Of a stretch of 64,000 nt of DNA, positions 23,935 to 63,586 are shown piece after piece. Source of the stretch: Methanosarcina mazei S-6 (GTDB lineage Archaea > Halobacteriota > Methanosarcinia > Methanosarcinales > Methanosarcinaceae); the NCBI RefSeq assembly GCF_000970205.1, contig NZ_CP009512.1:3162001-3226000 (forward strand), given 5' to 3'. Within the stretch, counting starts at the first letter, position 1, and every line of letters begins with the position of its first letter. The position numbers were made by a program, and so were the translations under genes. Below the pieces are notes generated by a model. The model did not search any database. It was given only the letters and a program-made list of their open reading frames with translations, and was not told the origin of the DNA.

Positions 23935-25524
23935 TCAAAGCTTAATCCTGGAAATTGTATTGCTGCGCAGCTGGGTCACAGGTGCCTGTTTTGAAACCCT
24001 AAGGCTGACTGGGACTGACAGATCAACTGCAGAGCCTGCACACGGATTCTGGCTTATAACTGTTCCTGCAGCAGCTGTAGAAACAGCTTCAGATACTGTT
24101 CCTGCTTTTATCTCCTGAGCCCCAAGTAAGGAGATAGCTTTTTCAAGAGGCATTCCGACAAGATTAGGAACCGGTTTAACTGAGGGCTCGGCCTGGGCTC
24201 GGACCTGAGGCTCTGCAGATGCTTTCACCTGAGTTTCTAAAGGCGCAGTCGATGGAGTTTCACCTGAAACTTTAAATGTAGTTTCAGGCTGCAGCTTTGA
24301 TGCGGTTTCGGATAAAATTTTATTTACAGGTTCTTTAGCAGCAGTTTCGGGAAAAGTATTCAAAGGCGCTTCAATAACTGATCCTATTTTCCCTGCTGAA
24401 ACTACGAGATCAATTTTTGAATTTTTTTCCACTTCAGCCCCGGGTTTAAGGCTCTGTGCAAGGACAATGCCCGGCTTCCCGCTGCTAACGAGCTGTTCCT
24501 TGATACTGCCAGGCAGGAGTCCGGATTTATCTATTAACTGCTTTGCGCTCTCAAGCTCAAGTCCAAGCAGGTTAGGGGCTTTAAAAACCGCCACCGAAAC
24601 CGTCAGGACAATTGCAGTGCCAACACTGACTTCAGAACCTGGAGGGAGGCTCTGTGCAAGGACTATGCCAGGGGTTTTATCAGAAGGTTTTTCTTTGACC
24701 CCTTCAAGCCTGAGCCGAGATTTTTCAATGAGAGCTTTTGCAGCTTCGAGACTGAGACCTGAGAAGTCCGGCACTTTTAATGAAATTATTTTCGAAATGA
24801 TAAGATCCACAGCTGCCCCCGGTGCTGCGAGGGAGCCTTCCGATGGGAGCTGGCCTATTACCGTGCCCTGGGAGGTGCTGCTTTCTTTTTCGAGAATCTC
24901 TCCTGCCTTAAAACCTGCCTCCTGAAGTTTGCTTTCTGCTTCTTCTTTTGAAAGCCCGACAAGGCCAGGGACTTCTTTACACGAGGCAATATCCGGCTTT
25001 TCAGGAACAGCTTTTAAAGAGAATTCTATTGTGCTGAGGTTTTCGGGACTGATAATATCGTCGGCTTCTGGCATCTGGAACCTCAGTTCCTCCCCTTCCA
25101 GAGCAATATTTGTTTTAAGGGTCACGTTCATACCGCTGACAAGGTACTTTGGACCTGACTGGATTTTCTTCAGTCCTTTATCCATTTCCGCAAGTGAGGA
25201 AGCAAAAGAGCTTACAAGGTTCGAAGAAGAAAGCACAGGCCTGCTCTTCTGTAAAATGGAGATTTTTGCTTCAAGTCCTGCTTTTTCATTTGAGAGCTTT
25301 GCCACCTGTGCTGCAAGACTGCTTTTTTCCCTTTCAAGGACAAGTTTTTCTCCAAGAACCTTATCCAGATTTTCCTTATAAGTAAGGGCTTCTTTCTGTA
25401 TGGATTGAATTTCTATTTCGGTATAATTCAATTTATTCAGAATGCTGGTATAGCTGCTGGCATCTATTGTCCCGGCTTTCCTGAAGGCTTCCAGGTTGCT
25501 CTTTATATCACCTATATTCGTCAT
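23935..25524 (-). CDS. coiled-coil protein with four PASTA repeats, no signal peptide
   Basis: This 529-residue protein has an N-terminal helical/coiled-coil region (about 30-95, rich in Glu, Lys and Leu) and a middle domain (about 100-175) with a helix LVSSFASSLAEMDKGLKK followed by beta-rich sequence. PASTA-type repeats begin near 184 (VPGLVGLSKEEAESKLQEAG), 249, 317 and 449. A low-complexity Ala/Glu/Pro/Thr linker lies at about 382-447. PASTA domains normally lie outside the cell on kinases or penicillin-binding proteins. Here there is no kinase, no transpeptidase, no signal sequence and no membrane helix. It has a strong GGGAGG ribosome binding site. Function unknown; probably an assembly or scaffold protein. 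Confidence 0.85.
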   Translation of the reverse strand: MTNIGDIKSNLEAFRKAGTIDASSYTSILNKLNYTEIEIQSIQKEALTYKENLDKVLGEKLVLEREKSSLAAQVAKLSNEKAGLEAKISILQKSRPVLSSSNLVSSFASSLAEMDKGLKKIQSGPKYLVSGMNVTLKTNIALEGEELRFQMPEADDIISPENLSTIEFSLKAVPEKPDIASCKEVPGLVGLSKEEAESKLQEAGFKAGEILEKESSTSQGTVIGQLPSEGSLAAPGAAVDLIISKIISLKVPDFSGLSLEAAKALIEKSRLRLEGVKEKPSDKTPGIVLAQSLPPGSEVSVGTAIVLTVSVAVFKAPNLLGLELESAKQLIDKSGLLPGSIKEQLVSSGKPGIVLAQSLKPGAEVEKNSKIDLVVSAGKIGSVIEAPLNTFPETAAKEPVNKILSETASKLQPETTFKVSGETPSTAPLETQVKASAEPQVRAQAEPSVKPVPNLVGMPLEKAISLLGAQEIKAGTVSEAVSTAAAGTVISQNPCAGSAVDLSVPVSLRVSKQAPVTQLRSNTISRIKL

Positions 25525-27526: not shown

Positions 27527-28057
27527 TCACAGACCTTCTTTCTTACGCCCGAAGATGAAAACTAATCCAAGGATTGCTGCTACAGGGAGAGCAACGGTTG
27601 GGAACTCTGGAATCTGAGAGTTTACTGTCCTCGAAGCTGCTCCAAATTCAATACTAGTTTCAGATCCAGCTTTAATTGTAACAAGGTAACTTGCACCAGC
27701 CGGCCCATTATTGGTAAGTGTTATAACTCCTACATCAGTGTATGAGCTAGCGGTTGGGTGAAAATTCGGATGGACAAACCCAACAGTAATGTCAGTAGTT
27801 TTTGCTTCGGCAGGAGAACCAGCTTTTACTGCAACCGTAGAAGTATAAGGTAAATCCGTATCAACAGCTTCCTCTAAAATGCCTGTTCCTCTGAAGCTAA
27901 GAACTACAGATTGTCCAGGAGCCAAAGTTATAGGATTTGGTGCCTCTGCAGTACCTGCTGCATTCAAGAGACTTGGATCAAATGGAGCTGCCATTGCGGA
28001 TCCGGCCATACAGGCGATTAATAAACCGCTCACTATTAGTAACAAAATTTTCTTCAT
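27527..28057 (-). CDS. PEF-CTERM surface protein, 176 residues
   Basis: This secreted protein has an N-terminal signal peptide (about 1-23, MKKILLLIVSGLLIACMAGS then AMA) and a single beta-sandwich-like domain. Its C-terminal sorting signal comprises Pro-Glu-Phe at 150-152, a hydrophobic helix, and a basic end GRKKEGL. PEF-CTERM tails are recognised by archaeosortase C, which is expected to cleave and anchor the protein, often with a lipid. An artC gene lies at 34423-35259. The signal peptide and leader closely match those of the next PEF-CTERM gene (28806-29330). The role of the mature domain is unknown. Confidence 0.9.
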   Translation of the reverse strand: MKKILLLIVSGLLIACMAGSAMAAPFDPSLLNAAGTAEAPNPITLAPGQSVVLSFRGTGILEEAVDTDLPYTSTVAVKAGSPAEAKTTDITVGFVHPNFHPTASSYTDVGVITLTNNGPAGASYLVTIKAGSETSIEFGAASRTVNSQIPEFPTVALPVAAILGLVFIFGRKKEGL

Positions 28058-28805: not shown

Positions 28806-29330
28806 TCACAGCTCTTCTTTCTTACGACCAAATACGAAAACAAGTCCGATCAATGCTGCCACAGGGAGGGCAACGGTTGGGAATTCGGGAACTGATACAT
28901 TAACAGATTCTGCCGAATAAACAGAATATGATTTTGTAGTCGAATCCCCGGTAGATTCGGAATAGGTTGTTACGGTTACAGTCCCTGGCTTTGTTCCTTT
29001 TATGTACAGGGTTCCGCTATAGGTCTCTACTCCAGAGGTAAAAGAAGAACTTGAAAGAGATGTCCCAGAGCTTGCCCAGTTACCGGAACTGCCCACTGCA
29101 ACTGGAGAAGAGCTTTCAAGATATGCAAAAAGCCCGTCAGTCGCAGTAAGTGTTACATGGTATGTCCCTTGAGTGTTAATTCTTATACTTGTAGCGACGG
29201 AGGCTACAGAGTCTCCATCCGGAGTTATAGTTACGTCATCCGGTGTCAGTACGGTATTGCTGGCTCCTGCCGGCCCGGCGATACAGACTATCAATAAACT
29301 GCTCACTAATAGCAACAACATTTTTTTCAT
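28806..29330 (-). CDS. PEF-CTERM surface protein, 174 residues
   Basis: This secreted protein has a signal peptide (about 1-23) and a Ser/Thr-rich beta-sandwich domain, probably heavily glycosylated (for example SSSSFTSGVETYSGTLYIKG). The C-terminal PEF signal begins at about residue 148 (PEFPTVALPVAALIG...), followed by a hydrophobic helix and RKKEEL. The tail is almost identical to that of the 27527-28057 protein, while the middle domains differ. It is a likely archaeosortase C substrate. The strings of Ser/Thr fit a surface protein exposed to the glycosylation machinery encoded downstream. Confidence 0.9.
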   Translation of the reverse strand: MKKMLLLLVSSLLIVCIAGPAGASNTVLTPDDVTITPDGDSVASVATSIRINTQGTYHVTLTATDGLFAYLESSSPVAVGSSGNWASSGTSLSSSSFTSGVETYSGTLYIKGTKPGTVTVTTYSESTGDSTTKSYSVYSAESVNVSVPEFPTVALPVAALIGLVFVFGRKKEEL

Positions 29331-34422: not shown

Positions 34423-35259
34423 TCACCTTTTTAATTCTATAAAATACATTATACCTGCTGCAACACCTGCAAAAATAATCCAGCCTATATGTGTGTGTAC
34501 AAGCATCATCGTTTCCTCCCCGTAATAATAGGCAGTCAGGTAGAGGACAATTACCCTGAACAAATTAGATATGTAAGCGACAGCAACACAGAACCCGAGC
34601 ATCATAAAGGTCCTGTTAAAGTCCATTTTTTCAATTTGGCTGTACCCAAAAACGATTCCTATCAGAAGGAACATAGAGTACAGGCCCGAACAGGGACCCC
34701 CAATGACCATAGTCATTTCTTCAACACCACTGATCCTGACAGTTTCCGTAGCAATTACCTCAAGAGGAATCCCCATCAAGCCGATTATCTTTACAGTTGG
34801 AAGAAGTATCATATAATGGTCGAACTTGTGCAGGAAATCAATGTTAAGGAAAGCAAACATGGAATAGAAGATAAGGTAGAGCACAACAAAAACCGATGAG
34901 ATATACGCTCCGAACTTTGAGACGCGGGCGATCTGCGGGTTCTGGAGCTGGGTGCCGATTAAAGAGGCTCCGAAGAACAGAGTCATAACGTCCAGGGTCC
35001 CGAGTTCTCCGCTGTTTTTAAAGTTATAATAAAGGTCGGCTGAAACGATAAAAACTCCGATTACGAAATAGGTTTTCGATTTTTTCAACAGGCCGGAATC
35101 TCCCAGATGCTTGAAATTAATTTGTGTAAGCAAGAAAACGGAAATAAGGAAAAGAATAACTCCGACAGCAGTAGAGCCTTCGCTGACCTCAACTGCCATT
35201 CCTGTGAACAATGCAAGAACAAGTAAAATCAGAACCAGGTTTTTGTTTTCGCTGTCCAT
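34423..35259 (-). CDS. artC: archaeosortase C (PEF-CTERM-processing transpeptidase)
   Basis: This multipass membrane cysteine protease/transpeptidase of the exosortase/archaeosortase family is predicted to process PEF-CTERM tails and attach the protein to a membrane lipid. The chosen ATG at 35259 gives 278 residues; a GTG nine bases further upstream lies in the ribosome binding site. The catalytic triad is visible: Cys in IGGPCSGLYSM (about 190), Arg in YISNLFRV (about 235) and His in VHTHIGW (255 or 257). About eight membrane segments are apparent. Three PEF-CTERM substrates lie at 27527, 28806 and 44859. It is divergent from the polysaccharide operon starting at 35579. Confidence 0.93.
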   Translation of the reverse strand: MDSENKNLVLILLVLALFTGMAVEVSEGSTAVGVILFLISVFLLTQINFKHLGDSGLLKKSKTYFVIGVFIVSADLYYNFKNSGELGTLDVMTLFFGASLIGTQLQNPQIARVSKFGAYISSVFVVLYLIFYSMFAFLNIDFLHKFDHYMILLPTVKIIGLMGIPLEVIATETVRISGVEEMTMVIGGPCSGLYSMFLLIGIVFGYSQIEKMDFNRTFMMLGFCVAVAYISNLFRVIVLYLTAYYYGEETMMLVHTHIGWIIFAGVAAGIMYFIELKR

Positions 35260-35578
35260 TGTACCCACTCTTTACATGCATATATAATTGAGCAAATTAT
35301 TTAAAAACTTTTCTAAAAGTTTCAGGCAATCTCCCTGGCAACTATTATAAAAAAAATACAAAATAGTAAGAAATATATATTAAATGCACGACATTCTAAG
35401 CCAAAAAATAAATTCAGAAGATACCTTCGAATTTATCAGCCGGAATTACAAAAAATTCAGATATTAAAAAACCTATTCAGAATTATGAATACTTAAACTG
35501 AGGAAAAATTGAAAATAGATTCAAATGGACTGAAATTGAGAAAGGAACAAGGTTCAGGCCAAAAACGGGGGCGTCAAA
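35260..35578. other. divergent spacer between artC and the polysaccharide operon
   Basis: AT-rich. Candidate TATA motifs include AAATATATATTAAA near 35368-35381. It must hold a promoter on each strand. No gene was recognised. Confidence 0.5.
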
Positions 35579-44858: not shown

Positions 44859-45569
44859 TTATTCTTTTCTACATCCAATGATGGCAATAATACCAAGAAT
44901 TGAAACTACAGGCAAAGCAATAGAAGGAAACTCTGGAATCTCACCTCCAAATTCTATGAGTTTCTCTGCACGCACATCATTACCTCCATATGGAACGCTC
45001 ACTTTTAAAATACTAGGTTTATAATAATCAGGTAGGCTTACAACAAAGTTCGCTATTCCTTTATCATCTATTAGTGCTTCACCTTGACAAAGAACGTCAC
45101 GTGGATCTCCTACTTCATAGTATAAAGTTCGATGAAATGAGGGATTCGATACATGAACAGAAACAGTAAAATCCTGATTGTATACTGGGTTACTTGGATT
45201 TATGGTTATACTATCAATTGAAGGTTTATAAATATTTATATATTGTTGTCCGGTCAGTACAATGTTGCCTTGACTATCATGTATAAGATAACGTAACGTA
45301 CTTGGTTCAGTGGAATAGTAATCCATTATCGATACATCAAAATTCGCTATCCCCTCACTGTCAATTGGTGCATAACCCGACCCTTCAGTCATCCCCCCAA
45401 TTGAATAGATCATAAACCCTCCTTCTGGAGGGTTCAAAATATGAACAAAAATAGTAAATTCTTCATTATATATTGGATTACTTGGGTTTGTATATATACT
45501 ACTAATTGAAGTTTGGTCAGCGCTTGCAGTGCTCACTAACGCCACTATTAATAAAACTGTTACTCCCAA
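44859..45569 (-). CDS. PEF-CTERM surface protein with two repeated Ig-like domains; start unclear
   Basis: This 236-residue secreted protein has two similar domains of about 90 residues (from ISSIYTNPSNPIYNEEFTIF and from IDSITINPSNPVYNQDFTVS). The PEF-CTERM tail begins at about residue 212 (PEFPSIALPVVS...). The TTG at 45569 is the first candidate start, but the frame stays open upstream to about 45620. It would give a complete signal peptide, KNHTLIRVLGV before the hydrophobic stretch, if an ATA codon (about 45599) were the start. No ATG or GTG is present before the upstream stop. So either a non-standard start is used or the gene has lost its start. Confidence 0.75.
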   Translation of the reverse strand: MGVTVLLIVALVSTASADQTSISSIYTNPSNPIYNEEFTIFVHILNPPEGGFMIYSIGGMTEGSGYAPIDSEGIANFDVSIMDYYSTEPSTLRYLIHDSQGNIVLTGQQYINIYKPSIDSITINPSNPVYNQDFTVSVHVSNPSFHRTLYYEVGDPRDVLCQGEALIDDKGIANFVVSLPDYYKPSILKVSVPYGGNDVRAEKLIEFGGEIPEFPSIALPVVSILGIIAIIGCRKE

Positions 45570-56475: not shown

Positions 56476-57347
56476 GAACCTATCCGAAAAGTCCTGCTGC
56501 TCTGAATGTTATCCATGTACATGCGAAATGAAGCATAGCAAGGTAATTTTCAATTTTCTTTTCCCATCTTATAAGCAGTCTTCTGAATCTATTTAACCAA
56601 GAATGTGTCCTTTCTACAACCCACCTTCTTGCCCTGAAACCTGGTATCTCTATTCTTATGTTTTCTTCTCCACGACTTTTTATATGGGCAGTATAACCAT
56701 ATTCTTTAACCAATTCTCAGATATCAGGAAAATCATATCCTTTATCCATACAGACATTCTGAATTCCCTCATCTGTAGACGGTCTTTTAATAATTATGGA
56801 ATCAAAAGTCTCTTTTACAAGCTTTTTATCGTGGCGATTTGCACCATCAACAGTTACTGAAAGTGGCATACCTTTACCGTCTGTTAAAATACTCCTTTTT
56901 GTACCGGTTTTACCACGATCAGTTGGATTAGCTCCGGTTCCTGATCCACCTAATGGTGCTTTTGTCATAGCGCCATCAATTGCTTGCCATTCCCACTCCA
57001 ATCCATTTTTAGTATCGTACTCCATTAGACCAGCTTGCCACATGTTCTCAAAAAATCCAGATTTTTGCCATTCCTGAAATCGATCGTGCACAGTGCTTGG
57101 AGCTCCATAAAATCGGGGCAAAGATTTCCATTGGCAACCAGTACGAAGAAGATAGAAAATACCACTCAGGATTCTCTTATCATCTTTTCTAGGTCTTCCA
57201 GGCTTCTTTTTGGGTTTAGGGAGAGGTAATAATGGTTTGATTTTATTCCAAAGCTCATTAGAGATCTCGTAGTCAGGTACGTTTTTTCGTGTTGCCACTA
57301 ATCAATATTACCATAAAAGATAATTATTCTACTTTTCGGATGGGCTC
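56476..57347 (-). mobile_element. IS5-family insertion sequence, 872 bp
   Basis: The ends are near-perfect inverted repeats: GAACCTATCCGAAAAGT at 56476-56492 and its partner ACTTTTCGGATGGGCTC at 57331-57347 (15 of 17 match). TAA lies directly outside both ends, as expected for a 3-bp target duplication. It carries one transposase reading frame on the minus strand, split by a stop codon. It sits inside an older inverted-repeat element. Confidence 0.88.
56480..57298 (-). pseudogene. IS5-family transposase with in-frame TGA stop
   Basis: The N-terminal part (57298-56717) has 193 residues: helix-rich DUF4096-type region (ELWNKIKPLLPLPKPKKKPG to about 90), then DDE residues in WQAIDGAMTKAP, LSVTVDGANRHDKK and CMDKGYDFPDI. 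The TGA at 56717-56719 interrupts the frame. The second part continues in the same frame with ELVKEYGYTAHIKSRG and RRWVVERTHSWLNRFRRLLI, holding the catalytic Glu. A single change CGA to TGA explains it (the family has DIRELVKEYGYT there), so this is a nonsense mutation rather than programmed frameshifting. Confidence 0.88.
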
Positions 57348-58235: not shown

Positions 58236-61200
58236 ATGTTCAAAGCTAAACATTTAATTATACTTTGTATTATAACTTTATTTTTTATTTATCCATGTAA
58301 TGCTCAATATATAGACTTAGCTCCAACTGAAGATTCGAACACATACAGTAACTATGCTACCACAAACTATGGAAATTCTCCATATTTGGAAACTAAGTAT
58401 AACGAGAAAAGTACATATCTAAAATTTTATGTTCCTACTTACGTAAGTTCAGCCAAACTTAATCTATATTGTACTGAGGCAACTGGTAATGCATATGTAT
58501 ATGCAACCTCTCCTGATTGGAATGAAAGCGGAGTGACCTGGAATAATCCCCCAAGTGTGGAATACCCTACACGATTATCTGAAATCCCAATGCCAACGAC
58601 AAACACTTGGTACACAATTGATGTTAGTTCTGTAGTGTCGGAGCCTGGGTATTACTCGTTTGAGTTAAAGTCACAGTATGCAAGTCGGCACACGTACAAT
58701 TCATCAGAAGCTTTAGCAAATACTCCTTATTTAAAAACTGAACCCTCTCCATACACAGATATAATTTTCAATAATAAAACGAATGATACTAACCGCACAT
58801 TCCTAGTTAATACCGACGACTGTATCAGATTCTCGATAACTCCTCCGGATTCAGAAAATATAACTACTTATCAATGGCAACTAAATAAAACAGATCAGCC
58901 TGCGACATCATCATATTTTGATTTTATAGTTCCAGCTTATGATGAAAGACAGCCCTCTACGGGTATCTGGGAAATTTGGGTAAATGCCACTTATACAAAT
59001 GGGACGAGTATATACAAAGAATGGCTAATTTCTTCATTACCTGAGTCAGAAGCCCCTGACTACATAGAATATTTTAGCGATCTGAATAATACATTTAGAC
59101 CTGGATTCGCTGCTGATCCTTGGGGAAGATATCCGCCTTTTTATACTACAAGCAATAATTACATTTCAAAAGGTTTCCTTACAGGGTCAAGCTCTTCTTC
59201 TGGAACAACCATGCTTATAGATAACAATTTTGACATTACATATGGCACATTTAAATTCAAGATTAGAAATCCTGGATGTGTTGATGTAGTATACTTCAAA
59301 GTACTCGGAGAGTATGGAAATTGGAATTATGTACCGGATGGAAACGGGTTCCATGATTATTATGCTATATTAAATGGCGAAATATCGGAGAAAAGCTACA
59401 TACCAATTTCAAGAAGGTGGATAGGACAAGCTCCTTCAATGCATTTTTGGAGAACGGATGATGCTCAATGGAAAGAAATCACACTTATACATACCTGTGA
59501 TGATTGGTGGAGTGCATGGGATAATGGAGTTCAAATTCCAGGTAATTATCAACATTTCGCGGATGCATTTTCAAACGCAATAACATTAACAATGACTGCG
59601 AACAATCTTCTTGAAATGGACTGCATAGAAGTTTATAAAGACAAATATCTTTACCCAAATTCAAGAATCAGCTATGGCTCATATCCAAAATGGTGGTGTG
59701 TAGCAAATCCATCTGATGGATTCTTAAACCCAGTTGAGGAAAACGGTATCATAGCTTTTGGCCAGAATCTTACATTGGAATCAATTTCAGATTCAATAAA
59801 TAATGACAGCCTTATGACTTATGACACCGTTACAAATACAGCAATAATAAAAACAAATCTTTTCATCGAAGCAGGTGGCAAATTAAATATTACGGATGAA
59901 ACATTACTATTCGACACGTCTACTAATTCGCTTGATATAAATCTAATGATACATTCAACTTTCAATGTTGAAAATTCTACAATTTCCACGATTGGCAATA
60001 ATCCGATTAGGTGGAATCTAGCAAGCGCAGCAACCGTTAGTGTATTCAACCCGAACATTACTAAAAGCGAAACAGACAGAACATCATCGTTGTATTATGA
60101 AAGAAAAAATTCCATATATGATTTTGGTGGTCGTTTTATTATACAAAATTCTATGATAAATAATACTTGTAATTTATTCCTTGATGGTGCTTCTGAAATT
60201 GTACTAAACAATGTAGTGTTTTCTAATCATAGTAGTAGCGATTATGGAGATTACACATTACGTGGATCATATTACGGACATAATAATGCAAAAAATCAAT
60301 CAAAAGGTGAAAAAGCATTATGGATAGTTCCAAGAAACGATCTGGCAAATTTCATGATTAATAACATATCTTTTGTAAACCCTAAATCAGACATTGATCT
60401 GAAAGTAGTTGGCGGCGAATGGATATTCAATTCTACAACTGTAAAAAATTGTGATTTGTCAGGTGTCGATATCAGCACAAAAAAAGCATACAAGATGGTA
60501 TATTTCGTCCATTATTGGAATCTTACAGAACATTCAGATTTCTCACTTCTAAACTGCAAATTCAATGAGAGTAAATTAAACGTAGAAACAAACCATTCAA
60601 AACTTGAAACAAAATATTATGCTGATATAGTTGTAAAAGATGCATCAGGAAATCTCATACGAAATGCAGTAATTACCCCAAATGCTTCAAATGAAGAATA
60701 TGAAGCTGAAAATCTGCATAAATGGGATTGGTACATTTCAGATGGATATGGCCCAGGGCAAGGGGGTGCATCTGATTATGCACCGGGATACTATGATGAA
60801 AACGGAACTTTAGTAGGAAATATTCAAAATATTACATATTCAGGCGGGTCATATGTACGCTGGTATAACGCACAACCTTTAATTTCTGCTACTACAAATA
60901 CAGATGGTAGAACTTCTTTGCCATCTGAAAACGTGAATAATTCAGTAGTTCTTACCGATTATGTGTTAACAAACGAAACAGGAAAAATATCGAAAGAATC
61001 AATAGAATATGACTTTGCGATAAGATCTCCGGATTCAAAATCGGTCTACCTCCAAGGCGTGAACCCAGATCCAACTTGGTACAGGCAAAACCCTTCCTTA
61101 AGTACGTACACCATCACAGCAATAATTCCAGATAACTCAACGGGCCCACACATAACCGGTTTTGCACCAGCTAAAGAAAACCCATTCAACTCAGGAGAGA

Positions 61201-62831
61201 AGAAAAACTTCAGGATCTGGACTGATGAACCTCTAACCAGTATGGAATGGCGTGTTAATGGATCATCTGTTCTCAAAGGATCCCTTAATTATACATGGAC
61301 TGTAACAGACAGGAATACTACAATTGAATTCATAGGGTCCAATTCCAATGGTACTGTCAACCATATCTGGCCGCTGGGTGAAAGTCCCGATGAACCTTCA
61401 GTCCCGGATGATAACCCAGCTCAGGAAATTCAATTCTCACCTTCGGACTCGGAGATTACCCTGAACGTAAGCGAAAAAACTCTTTTCAGCGTCAGCCCGG
61501 ATGTCTTCACAACAAAAGAATGGTACATTAATGGATATCCGATCCAGAACAACACAACTTCCATGACCAGGTGCTGGAGCACAGCAGGCACTCATGATGT
61601 AACATTCAAAGGGGCCGGAAGCGAGGAACCCGTATCACATACCTGGACTGTGAACGTAGTTGAAGAAAAGAAAAACGATGAAGAGAGTACCGAATCAATA
61701 ATCGCAATAGCTCCTGAATACCAGATCGTTAAGCCGAAACAATCTTTTGGTCTGGATATAACTGTTGATCCCTCAGCCCCAATCATCGGCACACAGCTTG
61801 ACTTCGAATTCAACAGCTCAATGGCATCAGCAAACAGTGTAATCGAAGGAGATCTCTTCAAACAGAAGGGAGCGTCTACTTTTTTCAACGAGGGAGATAT
61901 TAACAGCAGTGAAGGGATAATCAAGCATATTTACGGCCTCATAATAGGCACATCAAACGTATCTTCACCCGGAACTTTTGCAACTGTCAACCTGACTGCA
62001 GGAAACAGGACAGGTATAGCAAAATTCAGCCTATCGAACGTGCTCATCAGCGACATAAATTCAAAATCCGTTCCGTATACTGTTACAAATGCGACCGTGC
62101 TGATAGACACTGCTCCGGCAATAGACCCTATCTGCTGCCCGAAATCAGTTGATGAGAAGAGTAACCTGGCTTTCAAAATAAGCGCTAAAGACGCAGACGG
62201 AGACAGGCTCATCCTTTCAGCATCAGGGCTTCCTGAAGGTTCAAGCTTCAACAGAACATCCGGAGCATTTGCCTGGACGCCGGCTGTAGGGCAGGCTGGA
62301 GTTTACACGATCACCTTCAAGGTAAGTGATGGGTACCTCACAGATTTTGAGAATGTCACTGTGACAGTAAACAAACTGAATAATCCTCCAGTCATTAATT
62401 TCTTCGAACCCATTAACGGCTCGTCCTTCAGCGAAGGGGAAAGGATCGGGATTTCAGTAAACGCAACCGATGCGGAAAAGCAGGCACTGAACTACTCTAT
62501 CAAAATCGATGGAGTAATGTACAGCTCCGATCCCGCCTATATCTGGGAAACAGACTATTCCAGCAGTGGAAACCACACCATAGAAATATCGGTAAGCGAC
62601 GGCATTGATGAAGCCAAAATGCAGCACATAATCTCCATAACCGACTGCCACCCACGCTACGACGTAAATGAAGATGGCGTGGTAAATATTCTGGACATAA
62701 CAAACGTAAGCAGGGAATACGAAACAACCGTTAGCAAGCCATACCCACGCTACGACACAAATCAGGATGGAGAGATAAACATACTGGACCTCACTCTGGT
62801 AGGACACCATTTCGGGGAAAAGGTAGAATGA
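58236..62831 (+). CDS. giant surface protein with DNRLRE-like, beta-helix, cohesin and dockerin domains
   Basis: This 1531-residue protein has a signal peptide (about 1-24). In order there follow: a DNRLRE-like domain (about 25-170, with APTEDSNTYSNYATTNYGNS) known from Methanosarcina disaggregatase-related proteins; an Ig-like part (180-280); a concanavalin-like part (280-450); a repetitive beta-helix region (about 490-800); Ig/PKD-like parts to about 1145; a cohesin domain (about 1155-1291); cadherin-like and PKD-like domains (to about 1465); and a C-terminal dockerin (about 1469-1531). The dockerin has two calcium loops, YDVNEDGVVNILD and YDTNQDGEINILD. Cohesins bind dockerins, so the protein could polymerise or recruit partners. 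The 5' two-thirds is AT-rich, the last third is not. Confidence 0.88.
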   Translation: MFKAKHLIILCIITLFFIYPCNAQYIDLAPTEDSNTYSNYATTNYGNSPYLETKYNEKSTYLKFYVPTYVSSAKLNLYCTEATGNAYVYATSPDWNESGVTWNNPPSVEYPTRLSEIPMPTTNTWYTIDVSSVVSEPGYYSFELKSQYASRHTYNSSEALANTPYLKTEPSPYTDIIFNNKTNDTNRTFLVNTDDCIRFSITPPDSENITTYQWQLNKTDQPATSSYFDFIVPAYDERQPSTGIWEIWVNATYTNGTSIYKEWLISSLPESEAPDYIEYFSDLNNTFRPGFAADPWGRYPPFYTTSNNYISKGFLTGSSSSSGTTMLIDNNFDITYGTFKFKIRNPGCVDVVYFKVLGEYGNWNYVPDGNGFHDYYAILNGEISEKSYIPISRRWIGQAPSMHFWRTDDAQWKEITLIHTCDDWWSAWDNGVQIPGNYQHFADAFSNAITLTMTANNLLEMDCIEVYKDKYLYPNSRISYGSYPKWWCVANPSDGFLNPVEENGIIAFGQNLTLESISDSINNDSLMTYDTVTNTAIIKTNLFIEAGGKLNITDETLLFDTSTNSLDINLMIHSTFNVENSTISTIGNNPIRWNLASAATVSVFNPNITKSETDRTSSLYYERKNSIYDFGGRFIIQNSMINNTCNLFLDGASEIVLNNVVFSNHSSSDYGDYTLRGSYYGHNNAKNQSKGEKALWIVPRNDLANFMINNISFVNPKSDIDLKVVGGEWIFNSTTVKNCDLSGVDISTKKAYKMVYFVHYWNLTEHSDFSLLNCKFNESKLNVETNHSKLETKYYADIVVKDASGNLIRNAVITPNASNEEYEAENLHKWDWYISDGYGPGQGGASDYAPGYYDENGTLVGNIQNITYSGGSYVRWYNAQPLISATTNTDGRTSLPSENVNNSVVLTDYVLTNETGKISKESIEYDFAIRSPDSKSVYLQGVNPDPTWYRQNPSLSTYTITAIIPDNSTGPHITGFAPAKENPFNSGEKKNFRIWTDEPLTSMEWRVNGSSVLKGSLNYTWTVTDRNTTIEFIGSNSNGTVNHIWPLGESPDEPSVPDDNPAQEIQFSPSDSEITLNVSEKTLFSVSPDVFTTKEWYINGYPIQNNTTSMTRCWSTAGTHDVTFKGAGSEEPVSHTWTVNVVEEKKNDEESTESIIAIAPEYQIVKPKQSFGLDITVDPSAPIIGTQLDFEFNSSMASANSVIEGDLFKQKGASTFFNEGDINSSEGIIKHIYGLIIGTSNVSSPGTFATVNLTAGNRTGIAKFSLSNVLISDINSKSVPYTVTNATVLIDTAPAIDPICCPKSVDEKSNLAFKISAKDADGDRLILSASGLPEGSSFNRTSGAFAWTPAVGQAGVYTITFKVSDGYLTDFENVTVTVNKLNNPPVINFFEPINGSSFSEGERIGISVNATDAEKQALNYSIKIDGVMYSSDPAYIWETDYSSSGNHTIEISVSDGIDEAKMQHIISITDCHPRYDVNEDGVVNILDITNVSREYETTVSKPYPRYDTNQDGEINILDLTLVGHHFGEKVE

Positions 62832-63022
62832 AACAGACAGGCACAGGCGTAATAACCTGTGCTTATCCGCTATTTTGCATTTCGATGGAAAACTGGGAGG
62901 GGAAACCATCGACCCGGATGCTTGACAAAAATATTAAGTCGTAAATCATGAAGTAACCTGATTAAAAGGATTAAAAAAATCAAATCGTAACCTTTTAGAA
63001 AAACAAGATGGGAGTGGGATAA
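62832..63022. other. spacer between the two cohesin genes
   Basis: Short region with the leader of the next gene; GGGAGTGGGA lies just before its ATG. No independent promoter is obvious, so the genes may be co-transcribed. Confidence 0.4.
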
Positions 63023-63586
63023 ATGAGAAAAAGTATAGTCAGTAAAAGTATAGTCAGTCTAATTGCACTAATAGCAATTCTTGCCTTCTTGAGTTCAACT
63101 GCAGCAGCTGCATCAAAAGTAACACTTCAGCCGTCATCTAAAAGTGTCTATGCAGGGGAAAATATCACATTGAATGTCGTCGTAACTCCGGATACTCAGA
63201 TCTCAGGCATACAGTTCGACCTTGAATATGACGGTTCATTATTCCAGGCAGCAGATGTGACTGAAGGCAACCTGTTCAGCCAGAGCGGTCAGAAAACATT
63301 TTTCAGCCCCGGGCAGACCGGAAACGGAAGGTTCAGTAATATTTACGGCTGTGTCCTTGGGAGTTCAAGTGTCTCAACTCCTGAGACCTTTGCAACCATA
63401 ACCCTGAAAGCAAACACCGGGGTGCAGGGCACTTCTCAGTTTTATCTGAAAAACGTAACTATAAGCAGCTCCGCATCAAAGCCTGTGGATGTAAGACTGG
63501 TAAATACAGGTATTACAATCTCGGATTCGGAGGCGAAAAAACCAAGGGGACTGCTGGGGAAACTGATTGAAGGCATTCTGGGTTGA
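63023..63586 (+). CDS. small secreted cohesin-domain protein
   Basis: A 187-residue protein with a signal peptide (about 1-30, with a duplicated KSIVS unit) and one cohesin domain (about 33-165). The segment ISGIQFDLEYDGSLFQAADV matches the cohesin of the preceding protein (TQLDFEFNSSMASANSVIEG), and NIYGCVLGSSSVSTPETFAT aligns with HIYGLIIGTSNVSSPGTFAT. There is no dockerin or sorting tail; the C-terminus ends GLLGKLIEGILG, a short amphipathic stretch. It could cap or anchor dockerin-bearing proteins such as its neighbour. Binding is inference from the families. Confidence 0.86.
   Translation: MRKSIVSKSIVSLIALIAILAFLSSTAAAASKVTLQPSSKSVYAGENITLNVVVTPDTQISGIQFDLEYDGSLFQAADVTEGNLFSQSGQKTFFSPGQTGNGRFSNIYGCVLGSSSVSTPETFATITLKANTGVQGTSQFYLKNVTISSSASKPVDVRLVNTGITISDSEAKKPRGLLGKLIEGILG
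63029..63058 (+). repeat. 15-bp tandem duplication inside the signal peptide
   Basis: Two identical units AAAAGTATAGTCAGT encode KSIVSKSIVS at the beginning of the cohesin protein. The unit is a multiple of three so the frame is kept. It lengthens the basic start of the signal peptide. Confidence 0.85.

Follow-up and report, generated by a model that had tools for sequence, protein, structure and literature searches.

What could an archaeon do with a cohesin and a dockerin on one secreted protein, and with a second cohesin encoded directly beside it? The question is raised by a 64,000-nucleotide stretch of Methanosarcina mazei S-6 (NZ_CP009512.1, positions 3,162,001 to 3,226,000), hereafter the window, where the open reading frame (ORF) of a 1531-residue protein, designated as the giant, is followed after 191 bp by the ORF of a single cohesin, designated as the free cohesin. 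The reading preferred here, at somewhat less than an even chance, is that the giant would be bound to sugars in the matrix and associate with its own copies in a calcium-dependent way, while the free cohesin acts as a cap. Cohesins and dockerins of non-cellulolytic archaea are known, as the initial annotation of the window had stated, with precedents in Archaeoglobus fulgidus and in anaerobic methanotrophic archaea (ANME) (PMC9705933, PMC9012536, PMC5244752, all available in part), and their purpose is called unknown or unclear in the available parts of PMC5244752 and PMC9012536. No published description of this locus was found among titles and opening lines of abstracts; Bayer 1999, Haimovitz 2008, and Voronov-Goldman 2011 might hold one.

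The giant ends in a dockerin with two calcium loops, as had been proposed. Dockerin_1 (PF00404) was matched with 39.9 bits in the protein scan and 44.3 bits in the genome search, above the cut-off of 22.9, and the D1-N3-D5-G6-N9-D12 pattern is complete in both loops, DVNEDGVVNILD and DTNQDGEINILD; a loss of key calcium residues, named in the initial annotation as evidence against an interaction, is not the case. The two halves of the dockerin are identical to each other at 13 of 24 positions (hand count). Its closest sequence matches among solved structures are the scaffoldin dockerins 3kcp and 2b59, which we take to be type II cohesin–X-dockerin structures of cellulosomes (CipA). As in these, an immunoglobulin-like (Ig-like) module stands right before the dockerin.

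The internal cohesin of the giant reached 29.4 bits against PF00963 in the genome search (cut-off 24.1) and was not listed when the whole 1531-residue protein was run in hmmscan. BLAST aligned it to the free cohesin with 36% identity over 149 residues (E 2e-22). The AlphaFold2 model of residues 1150–1531 has a mean predicted local distance difference test score (pLDDT) of 85.6 and a predicted template modelling score (pTM) of 0.56. In this model the internal cohesin has the cohesin fold, with 6kgd_A as the best row among solved cohesins (Z 17.5, root mean square deviation (rmsd) 2.1 Å) and A. fulgidus 2xdh close to it (Z 16.8, rmsd 1.9 Å). The best Foldseek row for the tail model was 2w1n. Genome search, BLAST, and model together agree with the internal cohesin of the initial annotation.

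The next gene, also as annotated, encodes a single cohesin resembling the internal one, with 68.4 bits against PF00963 in the protein scan and 69 bits in the genome search. Its start is signal-peptide-like, as is that of the giant; both were assessed by eye, without a predictor. The annotation had left it to cap or to anchor the giant. For comparison, 37 small single-cohesin ORFs were chosen, not at random, after the duplicate L129 was dropped (L numbers denote fetched loci and G numbers genomes; giant loci came from hit lists, not from random sampling). By a hydrophobicity threshold of our own, 28 of the 37 have a hydrophobic C-terminus, and a single cohesin therefore usually looks like an anchor. 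The free cohesin of the window is not among them, its tail reaching a peak hydropathy of 0.18, against 2.22 in the small cohesin of L162. Among the nine without such a C-terminus, L098 and L178 are cut short and L126 is barely below the threshold. The anchor thus found no support in the tail, and a role as cap is favoured. An amphipathic anchor was considered and rejected, as the tail does not exceed its shuffled versions in amphipathicity (fraction 0.48); the fractions in relatives (G084 0.047, G083 0.053, G003 0.025, G016 0.17, G017 0.34) are too weak and too few.

The window genome is a single contig of 4,142,816 bases, in which one dockerin and two cohesins were found with Pfam (E up to 0.001). 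Broader alignments at E up to 10 gave the same three modules and an extra dockerin row only at E 0.26. The scan for further dockerin proteins suggested in the initial annotation thus returned the giant's dockerin alone, and the internal cohesin therefore has no other endogenous partner in sight. A cellulosome was rejected, as the genome has one dockerin and two single cohesins and lacks a multi-cohesin scaffold. Family-wide, cohesin was found in 68 and dockerin in 61 of 111 genomes; in a sample of the phylum, 153 of 392 genomes have cohesin.

Relatives carry a further cohesin protein of about 390–460 residues, with the cohesin followed by PGF-pre-PGF and then by a C-terminal hydrophobic stretch, and in several of them its gene adjoins that of the giant. 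PGF-pre-PGF (TIGR04213) was matched in all three of these anchored cohesins that were scanned. The same locus, marked by the genes downstream in the window, including a glycosyltransferase family 4 gene, was recognized in seven other genomes (G084, G083, G098, G095, G006, G007, G008). Six of them have an intact anchored-cohesin ORF at the syntenic site, and G083 has a broken remnant of the PGF-pre-PGF half only, which shares 81% identity with its G084 counterpart over residues 228–395, has one internal stop, and adjoins a second, truncated free-cohesin copy. A 135-residue cohesin ORF of G083 (L076:8333-8740) was rejected as the front of the broken gene, as BLAST placed it nearest to the free cohesins, with 65% identity to the one in G083 itself. 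The window, G084, and G083 have the free cohesin. In G095, G006, G007, and G008, none lies between the giant and the anchored gene, and in G098 it is not visible, the contig ending there. In the window, only 100 bp separate the free cohesin from the glycosyltransferase gene, too little to hold the anchored gene.

Nor was the anchored gene found in the rest of the window genome: none of 23 first-look candidates scored was one, and no match was obtained at E up to 1e-50. Searched with the anchored protein, the genome gave 18 rows for the PGF-pre-PGF half and, besides the two cohesins already known, a single further row (E 0.19). A full-span match, defined as an alignment that starts at query residue 19 or before and ends at 356 or beyond, with E no higher than 1e-50, was counted by hand in 43 of the 111 genomes. 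It is present in 27 of the 31 genomes from which a giant was fetched, the exceptions being G000, G083, G009 (230 contigs), and G016 (76% complete, with a 405-residue cohesin ORF). The anchored cohesin is usual at this locus and absent from the window genome, which is new here. Since it is present in outlying relatives, a loss in the window lineage is more probable than an original absence.

Full-length homologs of the giant, with 46–48% identity, are found in five genomes of another genus (g11), and the nearest relatives, G084 and G083, have only residues from about 886 on in common with it (64% and 58%). Across Methanosarcinaceae, the cohesin–Ig–dockerin tail is kept and the heads vary, which is also new here. 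Profiles trained on the fetched ORFs recognized cohesin, Ig (PIG), and dockerin in 33 of these ORFs from 31 genomes, and the internal cohesins have invariant positions among 26 aligned. The spacing between cohesin and dockerin was taken from 37 fetched ORFs with the cohesin in front, small cohesin–dockerin adaptors included. It is 178–182 residues in 26 (two Ig), 90–96 in 6 (one Ig), and 361 in 1 (four Ig), and the other four gave no Ig profile match in between; the spacing changes in steps of whole Ig domains. In L145/L098 (G085) the giant is fragmented, and a cohesin part follows a start resembling that of the anchored cohesin, maybe by recombination between cohesins.

A tree was computed from 124 cohesin domains of the fetched loci (142 usable columns; deep order unsure), without the duplicate row L129 and without matches of 100 residues or fewer, such as the internal cohesin of L162. 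The internal cohesins of giants form one clade of 35 rows and one chimeric fragment (99/93), and the anchored cohesins another of 12 rows, 10 of them labelled such (100/94). The free cohesin of the window groups with nine others (100/98), separate from the internal-cohesin clade. Four of the 10 rows in its clade are cohesin–dockerin adaptors (L120, L121, L122, L179), two have tails that look by eye like a decayed dockerin (L096, L104), and the tails are short in the window, L075, L076, and L097; a dockerin of the window's free cohesin may have been lost or may never have been present. Archaeoglobus-type small cohesins are in yet another group of 11 rows (99/86). The 36% identity and separate clades of the internal and free cohesins disfavour an origin of one from the other by recent duplication.

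From these modules and the comparison with relatives we infer that the gene pair may represent a pared-down form of a plug-and-socket system on the archaeal cell surface. The giant would be secreted, its head (CBM96/DNRLRE and further, unassigned domains) would bind the cell's own extracellular polysaccharide, and its dockerin, folded around two calcium ions, would plug into a cohesin. In relatives, the PGF-pre-PGF anchored cohesin would keep such proteins attached to the membrane or S-layer. With this socket missing, the dockerin is limited to the internal cohesin, of another copy or its own, or to the free cohesin. It would be left with two soluble sockets: docking into the cohesin of another giant copy would give head-to-tail chains with the two Ig domains as spacer, which looks plausible from the arrangement of modules, and the free cohesin would end such a chain or occupy the dockerin. 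The outcome would be a protein mesh that depends on calcium and is bound to polysaccharide, and that may help to hold or shape cell aggregates. That a membrane-anchored system turned soluble and self-polymerising in the polysaccharide matrix, with the free cohesin, kin to the cohesin–dockerin adaptors, capping chain length, is a more doubtful proposal.

Several observations weigh against a self-associating matrix protein. The dockerin part of the tail model has a pLDDT of only about 58–70. At the Methanolobus-type loci L070–L074, the 9–15 kb fetched show no cohesin gene next to the giant, and the adjacency of giant and cohesin is therefore not universal. Seven fetched dockerin-bearing giants have no internal cohesin (L099, L100, L101, L106, L107, L108, L109); as this module is dispensable in relatives, it is possibly accessory in the giant. 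Seven of 11 heads scanned with Pfam on Ig–dockerin tails, that of the window included, match neither of the two disaggregatase-related models treated below. The free cohesin is in a different clade from AF2376 of A. fulgidus, and in a sequence search up to E 1 its clade profile missed A. fulgidus 2xdh; orthology thus gives no ground for transferring binding from A. fulgidus.

A one-to-one receptor pair is an unlikely but serious explanation, in which the dockerin would bind the free cohesin only and the internal cohesin would be an inert spacer or a leftover, forming no chains. The seven giants lacking the internal cohesin fit such a pair, as do the low identity of the two cohesins (36%) and their different supported clades, and the Doc75–Coh76 binding of A. 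fulgidus is reported as strong, specific, and between neighbouring genes (available part of PMC9705933). Against it, the internal cohesin was retained in 33 fetched ORFs, with invariant positions in the 26 aligned and in a single clade (99/93), and is therefore kept for something; the sole endogenous partner found for it is the giant's dockerin. More improbable is an intercellular adhesin, whose internal cohesin or dockerin would meet partners on other cells or species, e.g., neighbouring methanogens. Many related genomes do have several cohesins and dockerins, the modules look soluble here, and cell-to-cell contact has been proposed for the ANME modules (available part of PMC5244752); however, no partner organism is known, and the adjacent pair could serve itself.

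The remaining two explanations are still less probable. Cohesin and dockerin could be plain Ig-like and calcium-binding building blocks that do not interact, a view to which the best Foldseek row contributes, 2w1n being a cohesin module of a glycoside hydrolase and not of a scaffoldin. The complete canonical calcium-loop residues speak for an interaction, as does the adjacency of cohesin and dockerin genes in many fetched Methanosarcinaceae and Archaeoglobus-type loci. The presence of both modules on one chain would even allow the dockerin to fold back onto its own internal cohesin, with the free cohesin opening the giant. Such closure is hardly to be expected: two Ig domains with short links lie in between, the 178–182-residue spacing in 26 of the 37 ORFs argues mildly against it, and the pTM of the single-chain model and its low confidence in the dockerin weigh weakly against it.

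The preferred matrix reading also depends on the head of the giant, for which the initial annotation had named DNRLRE-like and beta-helix parts and had proposed aggregation or sugar binding rather than cellulose breakdown. The DNRLRE-like part is borne out by CBM96 and DNRLRE matches (Table 1). The beta-helix part is weakly supported at most: nothing but a weak Mucin_bdg row at 779–817 (E 0.046) was found in Pfam at E up to 1, and a profile search of solved structures with the head gave a single row (E 2.1). The AlphaFold2 model of residues 168–985, built with four sequences, failed (pLDDT 40); it contains short repeated strands at about residues 507–590, a block with pLDDT mostly 60–86, and a beta-helix in the giant is a guess. 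The proposed role in a carbohydrate matrix is strengthened by the CBM96/DNRLRE head and by the disaggregatase-related heads of some relatives.

These relatives were recognized among 11 Ig–dockerin-tail proteins scanned with Pfam (window, L070, L075, L076, L088, L096, L099, L102, L103, L105, L106). Disaggr_assoc was matched in four of them (L099, L102, L103, L105), three of which also match Disaggr_repeat, and three carry the cohesin (not L099); at least two of the remaining heads are unassigned. The giant of the window matched neither model at E up to 1, and Disaggr_repeat has 14 matches elsewhere in the window genome. Kinship of the giant with the M. mazei disaggregatase, which degrades methanochondroitin, is thus only at the level of DNRLRE/CBM96, matched by the giant's head. 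In L102, Disaggr_repeat and DNRLRE fall on one and the same stretch, residues about 911–1091. Methanochondroitin and disaggregatase act in the aggregation and dispersal of Methanosarcina, and the available main text names neither cohesin nor dockerin (PMC12369344). Conversely, no mention of disaggregatase was found in literature joining dockerin, cohesin, and Methanosarcina.

Among the systems compared is the non-cellulosomal one of L162, which we take to be the locus of A. fulgidus DSM 4304, where a 190-residue cohesin with PGF-like tail comes after a 506-residue cohesin–dockerin protein. The dockerin is placed at 432–506 of ORF2375 and the cohesin at 29–162 of ORF2376, and strong, specific binding is stated on citation of earlier work in a paper that used the pair itself (available part of PMC9705933). 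The arrangement of a cohesin–dockerin protein and a neighbouring cohesin is therefore already known from AF2375/AF2376, which share with the window the gene order, a small cohesin of similar size and domain position, and the cohesin fold (2xdh). The differences are that cohesin and dockerin stand directly beside each other in the 506-residue protein, whereas two Ig spacers separate them in the giant, and that the A. fulgidus small cohesin has a hydrophobic PGF-like tail and belongs to another clade, whereas the free cohesin has no visible anchor. Beside the anchored cohesin, a third gene of about 190–225 residues with a dockerin is seen in L163–L167, L170, L172, L173, and L175 (Archaeoglobus-type and some others). 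Methanosarcina sp. 2.H.T.1A.6 (L075/L138) has the same locus and downstream genes, a cohesin–Ig–Ig–dockerin tail with 63% identity over 647 residues, and a free cohesin with 47% identity over 180 residues, but a different giant head and the anchored cohesin gene that is absent from the window genome.

Genome G075 (L126), presumably M. acetivorans C2A, likewise has a single cohesin adjoining a dockerin protein, but with the dockerin at the N-terminus of a protein resembling, by eye, an ABC substrate-binding protein. In both G075 and G084 (L125:4548-6499, L126:4259-6267, minus strand), the single cohesin precedes this N-terminal-dockerin protein, which by eye is metal/cobalamin substrate-binding-like. 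L125, a close copy of the L126 cohesin, gave a PGF-CTERM match above the Pfam and below the NCBIfam cut-off. For ANME, dockerin-bearing substrate-binding proteins are described, as are proteins that combine a single dockerin with as many as five cohesins (available part of PMC9012536), and ANME-1 and ANME-2a have many cohesin and dockerin copies per genome (available part of PMC5244752). Cohesin and dockerin on one archaeal protein are common to ANME and the window, which differs in having one dockerin and two cohesins in its genome.

Table 1. Features of the giant and the free cohesin (positions in the window)
Feature	Position	Strand	Remarks
Giant cohesin–dockerin ORF	58236..62831	+	1531 aa; signal-peptide-like N-terminus (by eye); no C-terminal hydrophobic helix
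CBM96/DNRLRE domain	58308..58733	+	residues 25-166; CBM96 84.4 bits, DNRLRE 69.5 bits
Conserved region X1	58749..59675	+	residues 172-480; common to five genus-g11 homologs
Conserved region BH, possible beta-helix, unproven	59676..60620	+	residues 481-795; structure model mostly failed
Conserved region X2	60846..61205	+	residues 871-990; part common to nearest relatives begins about here
Two Ig-like segments	61182..61652	+	residues 983-1047, 1067-1139; profiles built in this analysis
Internal cohesin	61701..62105	+	residues 1156-1290; profile, BLAST, structure model
He_PIG Ig-like spacer	62115..62372	+	residues 1294-1379; 54.6 bits
Big_7 Ig-like spacer	62388..62585	+	residues 1385-1450; 31.1 bits
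Dockerin	62658..62807	+	residues 1475-1524; Pfam and broader profiles
Dockerin calcium loop 1, DVNEDGVVNILD	62661..62696	+	residues 1476-1487
Dockerin calcium loop 2, DTNQDGEINILD	62754..62789	+	residues 1507-1518
Free single-cohesin ORF	63023..63586	+	187 aa; signal-peptide-like N-terminus (by eye)
Cohesin domain of free cohesin	63119..63520	+	residues 33-166
C-terminal tail of free cohesin	63521..63583	+	21 residues; no hydrophobic helix, no dockerin

Upstream of the giant, at 34.4–55.9 kb of the window, lies a surface-polysaccharide cluster with glycosyltransferase, DUF354, pyruvyl transferase, polysaccharide-export-like, and acyltransferase genes. An apparently shortened IS4/5-family transposase gene is just upstream of the giant (56717-57298, minus strand), its DDE part matching only positions 8–87 of 200. 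Archaeosortase C is encoded at 34423-35268 (minus strand, 464 bits), and three PEF-CTERM proteins at 27527-28057, 28806-29330, and 44859-45569 (minus strand). A 529-residue protein (23935-25524, minus strand) matches a bacterial PASTA kinase model (130 bits against a cut-off of 450) over the model's C-terminal portion, which is presumably PASTA.

Methanosarcina is a genus with genetic tools, and one dockerin and two cohesins in a single-contig genome reduce the question of function to three modules. Some relatives join the tail to disaggregatase-related heads, and most genomes with a fetched giant also have an anchored cohesin; both links point to the cell's own coat, not to the breakdown of biomass.

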